Under the pieces are notes generated by a model. It made no database searches and was not told where the DNA came from. It worked only from the letters and a program-made list of their open reading frames with translations. The position numbers and the translations under genes were made by a program. This document shows, piece by piece, positions 1 through 4,673 of a stretch of 33,976 bases of DNA. The DNA is from an uncultured Porphyromonadaceae bacterium (GTDB lineage: Bacteria > Bacteroidota > Bacteroidia > Bacteroidales > Muribaculaceae). Position 1 is the stretch's first letter; the number at the start of each line of letters is the position of its first letter. Location of the stretch: the NCBI GenBank assembly GCA_947175545.1, contig CAMWNI010000019.1, positions 1 through 33,976 of the forward strand. The letters are read 5' to 3'.

Positions 1-681
1 CTGACCGTTTTTGCCCTCTGAAAGAGGAAATTTAGAGTAATCCATATCTGTGTCAGAATCTGTGTCAAATTTTATATCAAGTCCTGAAATCCACTTTTCA
101 AGCTCTGTTTTGGCAGTGTTTCCCGCAAAGCGTCGTCCGGGAATCCAGACAGCATCCGGAACGAGAGAATGCAGATTGCGGTCGCTGCTTCCAAGACCGC
201 TGGAGTGCGATGTGCAGAAAGGCACAATCGTTTTCCCTTTGAAATCTCCGCTCTCAAGGAAGGTGCTGATTATACGCGGTGCTTCTCCCCACCATATCGG
301 ATAACCGAGGAAAACCACATCGTATCGGTCAAGACCGTCAGGCATACTTTTGATTGCCGGACGAGCCTTGGGATTGTTCTGCTCCCTGTTGGCGCGACAG
401 TCGCTGTTATAGTCAAGATCGGCGGCGGTGTAAGGCACTTCCGCTTCGATTCTGAATGTGGATGCCCTCGTTATATCCGCTATACCCTCGGCAATACCTT
501 CTGTGGTCCCCGTACATGAGAAATATGCTATCAGTAGGCTGCCATTTTTGCCGGTTTCAGTGCCGGGTGTCGGATCAGGAGCCGGATTTTCAGTTATGGG
601 GTCATCATCCGTTGTAGCGCATGATGCACAAGCTGTCAGAGAAAGCATGGACATTATCATTGAAAGAATTTTGAGTTTCAT
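1..681 (-). CDS. Exported flavodoxin-like lipoprotein (3' end outside window)
   Basis: The frame is open through the left edge, so the protein is at least 227 residues and incomplete. It begins with a short hydrophobic segment and a lipobox, L15-T-A-C18, so it is probably a lipoprotein. A linker rich in Asp, Pro and Thr follows. The flavodoxin fold starts with LLIAYFSCTGTTEGIAEGIA, an FMN-phosphate loop of the flavodoxin_4 type, and continues with DVVFLGYPIWWGEAPRI and VPFCTSHSSGLGSS. Flavodoxins normally carry electrons in the cytoplasm through bound FMN; here the export signal implies a periplasmic or outer-membrane site. The start is 4 bases after the acetyltransferase stop, so the two are probably one operon. 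FMN binding is inferred from the loop only; the partner is unknown. Confidence 0.85.
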   Translation of the reverse strand, partial: MKLKILSMIMSMLSLTACASCATTDDDPITENPAPDPTPGTETGKNGSLLIAYFSCTGTTEGIAEGIADITRASTFRIEAEVPYTAADLDYNSDCRANREQNNPKARPAIKSMPDGLDRYDVVFLGYPIWWGEAPRIISTFLESGDFKGKTIVPFCTSHSSGLGSSDRNLHSLVPDAVWIPGRRFAGNTAKTELEKWISGLDIKFDTDSDTDMDYSKFPLSEGKNGQ

Positions 682-685
682 ATAT

Positions 686-1243
686 TCATGTATTTATATG
701 TCGTATATACTTTGCGGGTACTCCAGCGACGATTGTATTATCGGCGACATCATTTTTTACAATAGCCCCTGCGGCCACTATGGCATTTTCACCTACCGTG
801 ACACCGGGCAGTATTATCGCTCCGGCTCCGATCCATGCGTTACGGCGAATCACAACCGGGGATGTAATCAGTGAATGTCGTCTTTCAGGTTCTTCGGGAT
901 GTCCTTCGGTCGCGATTTTCACACCGGGGCCGACAAACACTCCGTCCTCCAGCGTTATGCCGCCCTGATCGAGAAAGGTGCAGCCGAAGTTTATAAAAAC
1001 CTCTTTGCCTACCGTTGTCATTTTGCCGAGAGCGGTATAAAACGGCGGGAACATCCTCACCGTGCTGTCAAGCCGCTGCCCCCAGATGCGTTCCAGAATG
1101 GCGCGTATCTCATCGGGTGTATGGTAGCCGGTGTTCAACTCGGCGATAAGCCGACGGGTATTCTCAATCTCGTCACAGAGAAGTTCGGGCGCAGTCTCGG
1201 ATATGCGCTCGCCGTTTCTCATACATTCAATAACAGGAGTCAT
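686..1243 (-). CDS. Hexapeptide-repeat O-acetyltransferase (maltose/galactoside acetyltransferase-like)
   Basis: A 185-residue cytoplasmic protein with an N-terminal helical segment followed by a left-handed beta-helix of hexapeptide turns, for example GVFVGPGVKIA, AWIGAGAIILPGVTVGENAIVAAGA and the terminal AGVPAKYIR. This is the arrangement of the Maa/LacA/NodL family, which transfers acetyl from acetyl-CoA to sugar hydroxyls. The usual catalytic His is present in TEGHPEEPERR. Substrate is not readable from the sequence. It is the first gene of a two-gene operon with the flavodoxin lipoprotein. A -7 box TAATTTTG sits 35 bases upstream on the same strand, without a good -33 element; two putative AraC half-sites lie just beyond it. 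A relative of this gene survives as a 5' fragment near 4.3-4.6 kb. Confidence 0.88.
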   Translation of the reverse strand: MTPVIECMRNGERISETAPELLCDEIENTRRLIAELNTGYHTPDEIRAILERIWGQRLDSTVRMFPPFYTALGKMTTVGKEVFINFGCTFLDQGGITLEDGVFVGPGVKIATEGHPEEPERRHSLITSPVVIRRNAWIGAGAIILPGVTVGENAIVAAGAIVKNDVADNTIVAGVPAKYIRHINT

Positions 1244-1278
1244 TATTATTTGTCACTTTTACGTTTGTTTTCACAGTG

Positions 1279-1286
1279 CAAAATTA
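1279..1286 (-). promoter_or_regulatory. -7 box of the acetyltransferase-flavodoxin operon
   Basis: TAATTTTG on the minus strand fits the Bacteroidetes -7 consensus TAnnTTTG. No TTTG is found 19-21 bases upstream. The missing -33 element and the nearby direct repeats suggest an activator-dependent promoter (inference). Confidence 0.55.
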
Positions 1287-1307
1287 GCTTCAAAAAAGAT
1301 GGTGGGA

Positions 1308-1347
1308 ATAACCAATGTTACGCCTGAATGTACCTCGATTACGGAAT
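1308..1347 (+). promoter_or_regulatory. Candidate AraC-type operator pair next to the acetyltransferase promoter
   Basis: Two half-sites in direct repeat, 21 bases start to start: ATAACCAATGTTACG at 1308 and TGTACCTCGATTACGGAAT at 1329. The first is weaker, sharing ACC and TTACG. The pair begins 21 bases upstream of the -7 box of the acetyltransferase operon. Similar pairs are at 1381 and 4011. Confidence 0.6.
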
Positions 1348-1380
1348 TACGCATCTGCCTTAAATCGCTGATTCGCAAAA

Positions 1381-1420
1381 TGTACCAATCTTACGGAATT
1401 ATGTACCCCGATTACATATA
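1381..1420 (+). promoter_or_regulatory. Candidate AraC-type operator pair upstream of the regulator gene
   Basis: Half-sites TGTACCAATCTTACGGAAT at 1381 and TGTACCCCGATTACATATA at 1402 are exact direct repeats in TGTACC with a 21-base step. They lie 15 bases upstream of the -33 element of the regulator's own promoter, so they may serve autoregulation or looping to the pair at 1308. Confidence 0.6.
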
Positions 1421-1434
1421 GGTGACGTTTCTGC

Positions 1435-1465
1435 ATTGCGCGACAACAGATTATAGCTATCTTTG
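1435..1465 (+). promoter_or_regulatory. Promoter of the AraC-family regulator gene
   Basis: ATTG at 1435-1438, 19 bases, then TATCTTTG at 1458-1465, fitting the Bacteroidetes -33/-7 pattern. The ATG follows 17 bases later. Confidence 0.65.
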
Positions 1466-1482
1466 CAGAAAAGAAATCTTAT

Positions 1483-2379
1483 ATGGAAATATACGAGGCA
1501 GACACTATTGAAAAATACAACCGCTATTTCGGTTTTGAGACGCGACATCCGCTTGTCGGCATAGTTCATTTTGACGATACTGTGGAGCAGCCGACCCATT
1601 GCATGCACTTCGGTTTTTATTCACTTTTTCTCAAAAAGACCACAGGGTGTAAGATAAACTATGGGAAGACATCGTATGATTTCGATGACGAAACGGTTGT
1701 CAGTTTCGCTCCCGGCCAGACAGTAGGCATACACCGTTTTGAGGAAGGCCCGGCACCGGAAGCGGTCGGACTGCTGTTTCATCCCGATTTTCTTCTGCGG
1801 ACTCCCTTGGGTCAGAAAATCAAGCAATACACATTCTTTTCCTACGCCTCAAACGAAGCGTTGCATCTGTCGACGGAAGAACGCCTGATCTTGCAGGACT
1901 ATATGGACAAGATAGCCCGTGAGCTGCAACATCCCATCGACAAGTTCTCCAAGTCTCTTATAATATCCAACATAGAGGTGATGCTCAATTACTGTATGCG
2001 CTTCTATGAACGTCAGTTTGTCACGCGTGAAGAACTGAACCATAACGTACTCGGCAAATTCGAACAGCTGATTGACGAATATCTTGACAGTGGACGCGGA
2101 GCAATTGACGGAATACCCACAGTAAAGTATTTCGCGGACAAGATATGCCTTTCATCCAACTATTTCGGCGACCTTGTAAAGCAAGAAACGGGTAAGACCG
2201 CACAGGAATATATACAGCTGAAAATGATAAACTACGCTAAAAACTCGCTGTTGAATCCGGCTCTGAGTACCAAACAGATTTCAGAACTGCTTGGTTTCCA
2301 GCACTCGCAGCACTTTATCCGCTTTTTCAAAAAACAAACCGGAAGCACTCCAAGAGAATACCGGCTACAGCTGAATTGA
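1483..2379 (+). CDS. AraC-family transcriptional regulator
   Basis: A 298-residue protein. The C-terminal hundred residues form the AraC double helix-turn-helix: a first helix pair around VKYFADKICLSSNYFGDLVK, then the linker helix, then TKQISELLGFQHSQHFIRFF with the usual ending KKQTGSTPREYR. The N-terminal 190 residues are a beta-rich effector or dimer domain of the cupin-like kind, with no named ligand. It stands between two operons whose upstream regions carry 21-bp-phased direct repeats, which fits a local regulator of the acetyltransferase, flavodoxin and CMD-cupin genes. The last codons and stop lie inside a long palindrome shared with the convergent CMD-cupin gene. Confidence 0.93.
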   Translation: MEIYEADTIEKYNRYFGFETRHPLVGIVHFDDTVEQPTHCMHFGFYSLFLKKTTGCKINYGKTSYDFDDETVVSFAPGQTVGIHRFEEGPAPEAVGLLFHPDFLLRTPLGQKIKQYTFFSYASNEALHLSTEERLILQDYMDKIARELQHPIDKFSKSLIISNIEVMLNYCMRFYERQFVTREELNHNVLGKFEQLIDEYLDSGRGAIDGIPTVKYFADKICLSSNYFGDLVKQETGKTAQEYIQLKMINYAKNSLLNPALSTKQISELLGFQHSQHFIRFFKKQTGSTPREYRLQLN

Positions 2380-2410
2380 GCAAAATAAAGTTTTGCTCAA
2401 TTCAGTTGTA
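2366..2410. terminator. Bidirectional terminator shared by the regulator and CMD-cupin genes
   Basis: A perfect 15-bp inverted repeat, CTGAATTGAGCAAAA at 2371-2385 against 2391-2405 with loop TAAAG, extends outward by five more pairs, one of them G-U. A and T runs at the loop ends supply a U-rich end for either strand. The stop codons of both convergent genes lie inside the arms. Confidence 0.8.
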
Positions 2411-3244
2411 TTCCTCGTCGGTCACAGGTTCAAGCCAGATGTTTTCGGTGTTTTCGCCGGGTACGCTGAATGCGAGATGCGCAAACCACGAGTCTTTTGC
2501 CGCTCCATGCCAGTGTTTGACGTTGGCAGGAATATGGATTACAGTGCCAGGGAGTATTTCGACAGCAGGTTTGCCTTCTTCCTGATACCATCCGCGTCCC
2601 GCCACTCCGACAAGCATCTGACCGCCTCCGTTGTCTGCCTTATGGATATGCCAGTTGTTGCGGCATCCCGGCTCGAATGTCACATTGGCAAACGGAATCT
2701 GCGCGTCTGAAATCTGCGCAAGATAGCTGTTGCCGATGAAATACTTGGCGTATGCTGCATTAGGTTCGCCTATCGGGAATATCATCGAACGTGCGAACTC
2801 TGCTTTTGCATCATCACCCATGATGTCATCGTTCCATACCTCCTTTGCGAGACGGAATGCAGCCCATGCCTTGGGCCACCCGGCATAGAACGATACATGC
2901 GTCAGTATTTCGGCAATTTCGGTGCGGGTTATGCCGTTCTTTTTCGCCTCCTGAAGATGATAGGTCAGCGAACTGTCGGTAATTCCCTGCGAGATAAGCG
3001 ATGTGATTGTCACAAGACTGCGGTCGCGCAATGAAAGAAGGTCATTGCGGCTCCATACCTCGCCGAACAGGATGTCATCGTTAAGTCGGGCGAACTCCGG
3101 AGCGAAATCTCCGAGTTGGTCGCGCCCTGCTGTTTGCGTCACCTTCGTGCCGCGAGCTGAAGGTTGAACTGTTTTCTGCTGTGCCATAATTAGATTTGAT
3201 GTCATTGCCGATATTATCAGCAACATTATTGTTGTTTTCTTCAT
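2402..3244 (-). CDS. Secreted carboxymuconolactone decarboxylase-like / cupin fusion protein
   Basis: A 280-residue protein with an N-terminal signal peptide ending near IMAQQ. Residues of roughly 50-140 form an alpha-helical CMD/AhpD-like domain (LRDRSLVTITSLISQG, LTHVSFYAGWPKAWAAF) without the CxxC of true AhpD peroxidases. Residues of roughly 175-270 form a cupin with the metal-binding pattern NNWHIHKADNGGGQ and, later, HIPANVKHWHG. The two-domain pair is common in redox or aromatic-compound accessory clusters, but the reaction is unknown. The start codon overlaps the stop of the upstream flavodoxin by four bases (ATGA), so translation is probably coupled. Export puts it in the same compartment as the two flavodoxins of this cluster. 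Confidence 0.88.
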   Translation of the reverse strand: MKKTTIMLLIISAMTSNLIMAQQKTVQPSARGTKVTQTAGRDQLGDFAPEFARLNDDILFGEVWSRNDLLSLRDRSLVTITSLISQGITDSSLTYHLQEAKKNGITRTEIAEILTHVSFYAGWPKAWAAFRLAKEVWNDDIMGDDAKAEFARSMIFPIGEPNAAYAKYFIGNSYLAQISDAQIPFANVTFEPGCRNNWHIHKADNGGGQMLVGVAGRGWYQEEGKPAVEILPGTVIHIPANVKHWHGAAKDSWFAHLAFSVPGENTENIWLEPVTDEEYN

Positions 3245-3963
3245 TTCGATATTATTGTTTTATTTCCGTTTATGATATATATCCCGGTTGATAATCCTGT
3301 TGTCGAGCGGACATCAGAAAGTAGCCTGACGCCGGATAGTGAGTATACTGTATATTTTTCATCTGGGTCAGTTGAAATATGATTGATCCCGGATGAGAGT
3401 CGGTCATAATCTATCTTCGTCAGCCAGTTGTCAAGCATCGAGCCGGCATTTGAAGTTTGGGAAGACTTTATCCATAGCGAAGGAGTCAGGAAATCGCCAC
3501 CGGGTATCAGCCGCTTCGCGTCCGCTTCCACCCCGCTTATGCCACTGCTTGCACTTGAAACGATAAGTCCGATTTTCTTCCCGTCCATCTCCTTGCCGTA
3601 GTGAAGCAGAAACGTCTGTAACGGAGCTGCCATATTGCTCCACCAAAGCGGAACGCCGACAATTATGCAGTCATAGTCCGACAGATTCACATCTATGGGA
3701 TCAATCGCAGGATATGAAGCCGCATCGTCAGGATTATTGCGTATGGCTGCTATCTGTGCGCTGCCGATGGCATAGTTGTTAGCTGCATAATCAAGCCCCT
3801 TTTCAGCCGGCTCGATTTCCAGAACGTCGGCATCTATTTGCGTGCGTAGAGCATCGACTATTCGCTCCACATTATTGGTATAACTGTAATATACTATCAG
3901 TGTTTTAGCATGCACGCTTGCCGCGACAAGAAATGCAAGAATTGTAACTATTATTGTTCTCAT
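3241..3963 (-). CDS. Exported flavodoxin with a C-terminal sorting-like tail
   Basis: A 240-residue protein. Residues 1-19 are a signal peptide (ending VHAK). Residues of roughly 20-180 are a flavodoxin domain: phosphate loop TLIVYYSYTNNVERIVDAL, then YDCIIVGVPLWWSNMAAPLQ and LIVSSASSGISGVEADAKRL. A linker follows, and the last forty residues, from YTVYSLSGVRLL to GIYIINGNKTIISK, look like the short C-terminal beta-domain of many secreted Bacteroidetes proteins, related in pattern to T9SS type-A tails. It is the first gene of an operon with the CMD-cupin protein. Its -7 box is TAATTTTG, and an AraC-type operator pair replaces the -33 region. Sorting by T9SS is inference; the tail lacks a clear family assignment. 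Confidence 0.85.
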   Translation of the reverse strand: MRTIIVTILAFLVAASVHAKTLIVYYSYTNNVERIVDALRTQIDADVLEIEPAEKGLDYAANNYAIGSAQIAAIRNNPDDAASYPAIDPIDVNLSDYDCIIVGVPLWWSNMAAPLQTFLLHYGKEMDGKKIGLIVSSASSGISGVEADAKRLIPGGDFLTPSLWIKSSQTSNAGSMLDNWLTKIDYDRLSSGINHISTDPDEKYTVYSLSGVRLLSDVRSTTGLSTGIYIINGNKTIISK

Positions 3964-3982
3964 ACTTTATTTGTTTAATTTG

Positions 3983-3990
3983 CAAAATTA
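3983..3990 (-). promoter_or_regulatory. -7 box of the flavodoxin / CMD-cupin operon
   Basis: TAATTTTG on the minus strand, 19 bases before the start codon. There is no TTTG at the -33 position; that space is next to the repeat pair at 4011-4050, which suggests activator dependence. Confidence 0.55.
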
Positions 3991-4010
3991 GTAATCAGTA
4001 TGGTTTCATG

Positions 4011-4050
4011 TGTACCTCAATCCACGGAAAACATACCATTATCAAGGAAA
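4011..4050 (+). promoter_or_regulatory. Candidate AraC-type operator pair of the flavodoxin / CMD-cupin operon
   Basis: TGTACCTCAATCCACGGAA at 4011 and CATACCATTATCAAGGAAA at 4032 repeat with a 21-base step and match the half-sites at 1329 and 1381. The pair starts 20 bases upstream of the -7 box, nearly the same offset as the pair at 1308 has from its promoter (21 bases). Confidence 0.6.
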
Positions 4051-4276
4051 TCAATAGCCTACCTGTTTCTGTTGCTCGGCATTGTATCGGTCTCCGACTA
4101 CCGGAATAGCTGTTAACGTAGTTTCAAGTGTGCGCCACTCTTCGTCAGAGATGTTGAATGTGAGTGTATGGAGATTCTCGTCAAAATGAGAGTGTTTGGT
4201 GGTGCCGGGAATGGGAACAATCCACGGGGCTTTGTGCAACAGCCATCCAAGAGCTACCTGTGACGAGGTTGCATTT
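4051..4276 (-). pseudogene. Aldo/keto reductase, 3' fragment
   Basis: The frame reads LNATSSQVALGWLLHKAPWI, then VPIPGTTKHSHFDENL and an ordinary C-terminus ending KQVGY. This is the last strand-helix part of an aldo/keto reductase (NADPH-binding IPGT segment). The catalytic Asp-Tyr-Lys-His part is absent, leaving about 75 residues of a protein usually over 280. Immediately upstream the sequence changes to an acetyltransferase in another frame, so this is a deletion remnant. A start could be read at 4296, but that part of the frame has no homology to the family. AKR genes often accompany AraC, flavodoxin and CMD genes, so an intact copy may once have belonged to this cluster. Confidence 0.75.
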
Positions 4277-4603
4277 AGGTCCAATAAACACACCATCGCC
4301 TATTGTTATACCTCCTCTGCCGAATAATGTGCAGCATTGCTGAATGAAACAGCCTTTGCCGATTTTTACCGGCTTGCCATAGTCGATATACAACGGAGGC
4401 AATAGGGTAGTGCTTTCGTCAAGCGGCTTTCCGAGGATTATCTCCATAAGTTCATGAACCCGTTTCTGGTTACGGACACTGACTGTGGCAAGTTCCTGAG
4501 CAGTCTCCATTGTCGAGAATATGTCATCTATAAGAAGTTCATATCCCGGTTCTTCGGGCGACACAAGTTCGCCGCTGAGGTCTTTTGCAAATATGTCGTT
4601 CAT
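4265..4603 (-). pseudogene. Hexapeptide acetyltransferase, 5' fragment fused out of frame to the reductase remnant
   Basis: From MNDIFAKDL the frame gives about 110 residues resembling the acetyltransferase at 686-1243: an N-terminal helical part, then LPPLYIDYGKPVKIGKGCFI and GGITIGDGVFIGPKCNL. After that it runs into sequence that makes sense only in the aldo/keto reductase frame, and stops at 4181 after some 28 foreign residues. The junction is near 4265-4276, where a dozen bases (AAATGCAACCTC on the minus strand) serve both reading frames, as expected from a deletion through short homology. The active-site His region and the rest of the beta-helix are lost. Its own -7 box survives upstream, so a short nonfunctional peptide may still be made. 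Confidence 0.75.
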
Positions 4604-4630
4604 ATACGGTATGATTTTGTTTTCACACCG

Positions 4631-4638
4631 CAAAATTA
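4631..4638 (-). promoter_or_regulatory. -7 box of the broken acetyltransferase gene
   Basis: TAATTTTG on the minus strand, 27 bases before ATG 4603. It excludes the longer start at 4651, which would lie upstream of the box. Confidence 0.5.
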
Positions 4639-4645
4639 CAGCAAA

Positions 4646-4673
4646 AGCCACGCACCGGCTTTGTTGCGTGGCT
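4646..4673 (-). terminator. Rho-independent terminator after the AraC remnant
   Basis: A perfect 9-bp stem, AGCCACGCA / TGCGTGGCT with a 10-base loop, followed on the minus strand by TTTTGC. It begins 25 bases past the stop of the AraC fragment. Confidence 0.7.

Follow-up and report, generated by a model that had tools for sequence, protein, structure and literature searches.

Paired direct repeats with a 21-bp step as predicted operators of an AraC-family regulator in a Muribaculaceae bacterium

The stretch of DNA analyzed here (33,976 nucleotides of contig CAMWNI010000019.1, assembly GCA_947175545.1; in the following, the window) encodes an AraC-family regulator of 298 residues on its forward strand (1483..2379). 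Two gene pairs flank it, both on the reverse strand: a hexapeptide-repeat acetyltransferase (686..1243; Hexapep, E 4.1e-12) followed by a Flavodoxin_4 protein that is cut by the window edge (1..681; E 7.2e-49), and a further Flavodoxin_4 protein (3241..3963; E 8.2e-14) followed by a protein with a CMD and a cupin domain (2402..3244; CMD, E 2.3e-21; Cupin_2, E 7.2e-06, marginally short of its curated cut-off). The regulator carries a double HTH at its C-terminus, as is characteristic of AraC/XylS proteins, and scores 71 bits against HTH_18 (E 1.1e-19; cut-off 33.6); in the PDB, profile comparison also matches it to AraC, MarA and SoxS through their DNA-binding domains. Its N-terminal ~200 residues have no match in Pfam up to E 10. 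The AraC-like ligand-binding (cupin) domain that the family's sensor subgroup carries at the N-terminus is not detected by Pfam in the window regulator or its homologs L059 and L111, and in the homolog L109 the AraC_binding profile stays below its cut-off (E 0.01). The protein reaches 41 bits against the AraC equivalog model NF007860 of NCBIfam, where the cut-off is 208, and it does not combine a sensor kinase and a receiver in the manner of hybrid two-component systems, HTH domains being the only ones found. The family is spread across the Bacteroidales and occurs in Maribacter (best 80 of 583 relatives); Cys171 and a cysteine at position 55 or 56 are each present in 59 of 59 sequences.

Three pairs of direct repeats accompany these genes. 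A preliminary description had reported them as half-sites of the form TGTACC-N5/6-ACGGAA, and the pairs are present as reported, with a start-to-start step of exactly 21 within each. The form itself holds in part: its N6 version fits 1329 and 1381 without a mismatch and 1402 and 4032 with three, but it is absent at 1308 with up to three mismatches, and the spacer at 4011 has seven bases rather than five or six. In our delimitation, predicted operator 1 (1309..1350, +; 19.6 bits), composed of a weak half-site at 1309 and a strong one at 1330, would serve the divergent acetyltransferase-flavodoxin genes. Predicted operator 2 (1382..1423, +; 30.4 bits) lies upstream of the regulator's own promoter, and predicted operator 3 (4012..4053, +; 12.6 bits, or 17.3 bits with the composite model R1) would serve the flavodoxin and CMD-cupin genes. 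The half-site at 4012 contains one extra base. The -7 boxes of the acetyltransferase promoter (1279..1286, -) and the flavodoxin promoter (3983..3990, -) both read TAATTTTG and lie 22 bp from operator 1 and 21 bp from operator 3, respectively, while the -7 box of the regulator promoter, TATCTTTG (1458..1465, +), lies 34 bp from operator 2. The first two distances equal the 21 and 20 bases given previously, because the repeats were then taken to start one base earlier.

The scores refer to a 42-bp matrix of two 21-bp half-sites (nTACCCnnATTACGGATTnTn), trained on regions upstream of homologous regulators, from which the window and its two closest orthologs (L002, L003) were excluded. Over the 34-kb window, this independent matrix ranks the three pairs first, second and third, with the next independent site at 2.1 bits; in a 4-Mb first-order Markov sequence, two matches reach 12 bits, a rate of 0.5 per Mb and strand, and no match reaches 14 bits. 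Taken singly, the half-sites score 19.0 (1330), 16.2 (1382), 14.2 (1403), 8.6 (4033), 4.0 (4012) and 0.7 bits (1309), so that two of the six are really weak. It is the pairing, not the single half-site, that lies far beyond chance. Enrichment of the bare half-site consensus was dropped as evidence, since its matches in the window with up to three mismatches are not above chance (26 versus 21.75 expected).

Direct-repeat half-sites about 21 bp apart near a promoter are a trait of the AraC/XylS family, and this phase recurs upstream of the regulator's homologs. In a lag spectrum computed without any matrix, 22 of 103 upstream regions fall on the peak at 21 bp, and no other lag is found in more than seven. 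Pairs of at least 13 bits at lag 21 stand in 62 of the 103 regions, a count obtained with a matrix trained at that lag but in agreement with the matrix-free spectrum; other lags from 12 to 40 give such pairs in 1–16 regions each. For the spectrum and the training, L015, L033, L096 and L104 were removed as near-duplicates, which left 103 of 107 regions, 100 of them for training. When the motif was derived de novo without the window, L002 and L003, the best six of 40 random starts (of which the best 12 were listed) agreed within 2.2 log-likelihood units. No pair of at least 9 bits was found in 24 of the 110 loci whose upstream DNA was examined. Sixteen of these belong to the 100 closer homologs; four of the sixteen have 150 bases or fewer upstream, and one, L104, repeats L010.

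The distance between operator and promoter is just as regular. An exact -7 box (TAnnTTTG) lies on the target side of the operator in 69 of 109 matches, at 22 bp (60) or 21 bp (9), and on the other, regulator-facing side at 33–34 bp in 37 of 109; the 109, drawn from 111 matches after removal of L015, L033 and L104, include the window's own two as well as the near-identical pairs L103/L109 and L087/L096, which inflate the counts somewhat. At the regulator's own promoter, the operator has the opposite orientation, and its distance to the -7 box is some 12 bp greater than at the targets, on whose sense strand the half-site reads TCCGTAA-n4-GGTAC. The lack of a -33 element, previously noted for the window, is confirmed: TTTG/TTG has no preferred site ~20 bp before the -7 box in the 69 target and 37 own promoters, and the consensus of 67 target elements contains no such element either.

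Within the 2.23-Mb genome, the repeats are not distributed at random. With up to three mismatches allowed, a strict pattern for the pair that was modelled on the window's sequence has two matches, both in the window's intergenic region, and none in the reversed control. A looser whole-genome pattern did not discriminate (three matches versus six in the reversed control) and was rejected. The operator model R2 finds operator 2 as the genome's best match (E 6.2e-4) and recovers only this one of the three, the two weaker ones being not significant, while the composite operator-promoter model R1 gives E-values of 0.0023, 0.011 and 0.44. Complete operator-promoter elements occur in all eight of the named genomes at E <= 0.05, with E-values down to 6.7e-11 and at least 53 matches, 11 of which are elements used to build the model. 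These lists are lower bounds, because 150 first-look candidates per genome were scored (of 331 for R2, 521 for R1 and 485–4045 in the eight genomes). A survey of target genes covered 23 of 30 loci with complete elements, leaving out six repeats and one partial match; it took the longest ORF as the target, which does not establish the actual target gene, and counts two genes twice (L139 = L095, L144 = L075).

These elements also bear on the extent of the regulon, which had been described as local. The acetyltransferase-flavodoxin pair, the flavodoxin-CMD/cupin pair, each presumably an operon, and the regulator itself are predicted members at the locus, as proposed, but the restriction to it does not stand: flavodoxin-aldo-keto reductase genes and a DXS paralog that lie elsewhere are predicted members too. 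The element of the DXS paralog has its -7 box 21 bp from the operator, and this gene is likely a member in the window's genome. In the same-genus genome G003, operator 1, the pair with the weakest half-site, is nearly identical (L178:1979; 22.0 bits). G003 likewise has three local operators around the acetyltransferase, the CMD protein and the regulator/hydrolase, and the -7 box is 22 bp away in every case. Conservation of the repeats at the flavodoxin orthologs was not borne out: operator 3 was not found in three other members of the genus (G001, G004, G008), where the ~3.7-kb loci of these orthologs contain no pair above 3.2 bits. All three are without a regulator ortholog at >=83%.

A link between regulator and operator is suggested by co-variation. 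Among 201 x 21 residue-base pairs, the top one joins base 12 of the half-site to residue N226, which is predicted to lie in the recognition helix of HTH1. Half-sites of N226 regulators have A at this base in 102 of 110 cases and those of G226 regulators in 10 of 48; the co-variation statistic ignores relatedness and uses sites picked by a matrix favouring A there. The window regulator has N226, with which the TTAC core goes, and residue 226 has changed at least eight times on the tree. Base 12 also pairs with R134, A94, Y140 and K114, which lie outside the HTHs, and HTH-domain residues account for 42% of the top 50 core pairs versus 29% expected.

The conserved pairs, their specificity within the genome and the co-variation of N226 together support the operator and regulon interpretation. 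We consider it very probable that the three pairs are operators of the AraC-family regulator at 1483-2379, with class II-like activation at the targets. A dimer of the regulator would occupy two half-sites on the same face of the DNA, with a step of 21 bp, or two helical turns, between them. As the operator of a target ends 21–22 bp before a -7 box that lacks a -33 element, the bound protein would replace the missing -33 contact and recruit RNA polymerase. HTH1 would read the TTACGGA box, as the co-variation suggests, and HTH2 would be left with the GTACC box that adjoins the promoter. At the regulator gene itself, the reversed operator 33–34 bp before the -7 box may mediate autoregulation of either sign. 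On this evidence, the regulator is probably a class II-like activator, and its probable targets are a set of reductase and detoxification-like genes; the signal may be an electrophile, a quinone or redox, a guess based on the reductase-rich regulon.

Several alternatives were weighed. The operators might be real but have another AraC-type protein as their main or additional binder, with the regulator at 1483 as just one among several users. One candidate is the 44% paralog encoded at C22:12465-13343 of the window's genome, which has a similar operator of its own (12.3 bits, -7 box at 21 bp). In the genome G002, which is 99% complete, a CMD-cupin gene is preceded by a 28.6-bit operator with the box at 22 bp, but no regulator homolog is better than E 3.3e-9, which implies that another protein may use such sites, and subfamilies of the regulator have variant half-sites. 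However, the paralog's operator has the variant core ATTCGGG, the TTAC core is tied by co-variation to the N226 of the window regulator, and the genome's best R2 match sits at this regulator's own promoter, so we regard binding by another protein as rather unlikely.

Operators adjoining promoters could also block the polymerase until an inducer releases the regulator, and the sign of control is unreadable from sequence. However, an operator upstream at a fixed distance and the lack of a -33 element are expected of activator-dependent (class II) promoters, and with both features present here, repression appears unlikely. Chance repeats in intergenic DNA would fit the unenriched bare consensus and the weak half-sites at 1309 and 4012, but hardly the lag-21 peak, the de novo motif, the top three ranks in the window, the fixed box distances and the elements across genomes; we give this explanation almost no credence.

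The predicted activation resembles known systems in parts. In E. coli, the AraC half-sites araI1-araI2 have the same 21-bp step, with the promoter-proximal half-site next to the polymerase contact, as here, whereas the half-site sequence, promoter type and genes differ. Stress activators of the SoxS/MarA/YqhC type likewise place reductases and flavodoxins under AraC-type control, but the present regulator scores 24.7 bits against the SoxS model (cut-off 174), and paired half-sites in a strict 21-bp phase set its operators apart. A phylum-wide Bacteroidota stress regulon, the counterpart of SoxS/YqhC, is a tentative extension: a cytoplasmic AraC-type sensor, acting perhaps through its two conserved cysteines, would use one rigid composite promoter in two geometries. 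It is equally tentative that its targets comprise flavodoxin-like reductases, aldo-keto and alcohol dehydrogenases, a hydrolase and the second DXS.

In Bacteroides, according to PMC3870299, a direct-repeat motif with 21-bp periodicity occurs in this group of AraC-family regulators, and the rhamnose regulator RhaR, with its own unique motif, controls rhamnose catabolism rather than the reductase, hydrolase and DXS genes seen here, a distinction drawn from the paper's description of RhaR. In B. thetaiotaomicron, hybrid two-component systems, as portrayed in PMC3878776, also combine an AraC-type HTH with direct repeats averaging 21 bp, for which a dimer on one DNA face was proposed, but they are membrane sensor kinases of polysaccharide loci. 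A flavodoxin, FldA, is described under iron limitation in PMC10434189. Searches of open-licence papers in PubMed Central revealed no description of the regulator at 1483-2379. While 21-bp direct repeats of Bacteroides AraC-type regulators are already published, the regulator, motif, geometry and regulon appear to be new.

An uncharacterized regulator family hereby gains a predicted operator, promoter architecture and regulon, the latter including a second DXS gene and flavodoxin-like genes, all of which can be tested at once. The finding extends beyond the window, as the same element, at fixed distances from promoters, accompanies regulator genes of this kind in many Bacteroidota, and the 72-bp element can be used to search gut genomes for further members.

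The preliminary description interpreted six half-sites of the form TGTACC-N5/6-ACGGAA, arranged in three pairs with a 21-bp step, as an AraC regulon. All repeats lie where it placed them, but the copy at 4011 has a spacer of 7 bases. The repeats themselves are real, and there is good support for interpreting them as an AraC operator system. The bare half-site consensus is not enriched in the window; the weight of the evidence is carried by pairing, phase and conservation rather than by this consensus. The three operators are located at 1309–1350 (acetyltransferase side), 1382–1423 (promoter of the AraC-family regulator encoded at 1483–2379) and 4012–4053 (flavodoxin). The window, contig C19, belongs to a genome that comprises 2.23 Mb and is 99% complete, and the nearest named relatives of the regulator, among the best 80 of 583, are Bacteroidales.

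The 21-bp phase is evident without any motif model. For each of 103 regions upstream of regulator homologs (four near-duplicates removed), we determined the best 18-base self-match at every lag from 12 to 45. At least 13 of 18 identities are reached at lag 21 in 22 regions and at any other lag in at most seven; after block shuffling (20 shuffles), lag 21 yields a mean of 0.65 regions and a maximum of three. Furthermore, a 42-bp model with two tied halves was fitted from random starts to 100 upstream regions that exclude the window and its two closest orthologous loci; it converged on the half-site nTACCCnnATTACGGATTnTn, with an estimated 61% of the training regions containing a site. Its matrix scores at least 13 bits in 62 of the 103 regions at lag 21, as opposed to 1 to 16 at other lags, and the repeats are thus conserved upstream of regulator homologs. 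In the window, it assigns 30.4 bits to 1382, 19.6 to 1309 and 12.6 to 4012, followed by 5.7 at 1330, which overlaps the first operator, and 2.1. The single half-sites score 19.0, 16.2, 14.2, 8.6, 4.0 and 0.7 bits, so that the first and third operators each contain one weak half.

These operators stand in a fixed relation to the promoter. Among 109 operator matches of at least 13 bits within the loci, an exact −7 box (TAnnTTTG) starts 22 bp away in 60 and 21 bp away in nine on the side the operator reads away from, where every other offset accounts for at most four; on the opposite side, it starts at 33–34 bp in 37 and at 23 bp in five. The window promoters, with distances of 22 bp (acetyltransferase), 34 bp (regulator) and 21 bp (flavodoxin), fit this geometry. 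Operators paired exactly 73 bp apart occur in four loci (L001, the locus of the window, and L004, L034 and L035). The absence of a −33 element, noted early on, is borne out by TTTG/TTG counts, which reveal none in 69 promoters of target genes and 37 of the regulators themselves.

A strict paired pattern (up to three mismatches) has two matches in the window's genome, both in the window's intergenic region, and none in the control, but a looser one does not discriminate from the control. A composite model of operator, spacer and −7 box, built from 67 elements, none of them from the window or its two closest orthologous loci, finds the window elements with genome-wide E-values of 0.0023, 0.011 and 0.44; among the matches listed for an operator-only model, the operator at 1382 is the sole one recovered from the window. 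Elsewhere in this genome, the composite model matches before a DXS paralog on contig C14 (L130:2972–4828; 16.9 bits, −7 box at 21 bp), the shorter copy with 579 residues, the larger being encoded on C6. DXS genes of P. vulgatus, B. xylanisolvens, Paraprevotella xylaniphila and Prevotellamassilia also carry such an element. On C7 (L128:2061–3061), the model also matches at a pair of weak operators (7.8 and 3.9 bits), with a −7 box 22 bp from each, on either side of another AraC-type gene (HTH_18) that adjoins flavodoxin and aldo-keto reductase genes. On C22, a match of 12.3 bits with its box at 21 bp separates an alpha/beta hydrolase gene from that of a 44% paralog of the regulator. A match of 19.0 bits on C1 lacks a −7 box at that distance. 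In eight named genomes, picked for the operators in their loci, the model finds from at least one to 14 elements each at E ≤ 0.05, at least 53 in total; 42 of these are outside the model-building set (best E 6.7e-11).

Within the genus, seven of 11 genomes, including the window's, have a composite-model match at E ≤ 0.02. An operator is kept at the acetyltransferase ortholog of G003 but not at the flavodoxin orthologs of three other genomes. Genome G003, whose regulator ortholog is 84% identical, has three operators (35.7, 22.0 and 21.7 bits; every −7 box at 22 bp). They precede genes for a CMD protein, for an acetyltransferase that shares 95% identity with that of the window, and for an alpha/beta hydrolase transcribed divergently to the regulator gene. 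By contrast, the flavodoxin orthologs of G001, G004 and G008, genomes without a regulator ortholog of at least 83%, show no operator pair above 3.2 bits. G002 (99% complete) has a 28.6-bit operator-promoter element before a CMD-cupin gene (L181:1733), and the E-values of its regulator homologs do not fall below 3.3e-9; since a strong operator is present there without a close homolog, another protein may use it. At 4051–4651 of the window, an 81-residue aldo-keto reductase tail overlaps a shortened acetyltransferase, by eye both remnants, as if two genes had been joined through a deletion. The matching place in G003 has a full-length aldo-keto reductase adjacent to the operator, and the flavodoxin of G001 is preceded by a hexapeptide acetyltransferase that is intact.

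A connection between regulator and half-site is suggested by covariation. Over 80 regulators with a site, and with kinship ignored, the top of 201 × 21 residue-base pairs joins base 12, which is the A in TTAC, to N226, presumably in the predicted recognition helix of the first helix-turn-helix (HTH1). N226 regulators have this A in 102 of their 110 half-sites, G226 regulators in only 10 of 48, and residue 226 changed at least eight times on the tree; base 12 also pairs with residues outside the HTHs. Sites of at least 9 bits are absent from 24 of 110 loci, and among the ten more distant homologs L021–L030, only L029 has a nearby site of at least 13 bits. Cys171 and a second cysteine, at position 55 (28) or 56 (31), occur in all 59 aligned regulators, and the L013/L015 subfamily is devoid of Cys171; it is possible that the regulator is a redox sensor. 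We infer, rather than observe, its action as an activator, an exclusive tie of the operators to it, and its signal. In a Tannerellaceae MAG, the regulator gene (L081:6001–6879) contains an in-frame stop, and its two operators nevertheless score 36.2 and 31.5 bits.

The kind of system is already known, as 21-bp direct repeats have been published for AraC-type regulators of Bacteroides, both for rhamnose regulators (PMC3870299) and, with an average of 21 bp, for hybrid two-component systems (PMC3878776). No description of this regulator, motif, geometry or regulon came up in searches of open-licence papers.

The 90 composite elements of the regulon sample yield 86 putative first genes, two of them counted twice, and four elements yield none. 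By Pfam, these genes encode dienelactone-hydrolase-like proteins (20), AraC-type regulators (10), hexapeptide acetyltransferases (7), DXS (6), CMD and cyclophilin-like proteins (5 each), DUF3737 and Flavodoxin_4 (4 each), and TonB receptors and short-chain dehydrogenases (3 each). Fe- and Zn-alcohol dehydrogenases are among the putative targets found once, and a Flavodoxin_2 gene has an operator in front, but without an exact −7 box.
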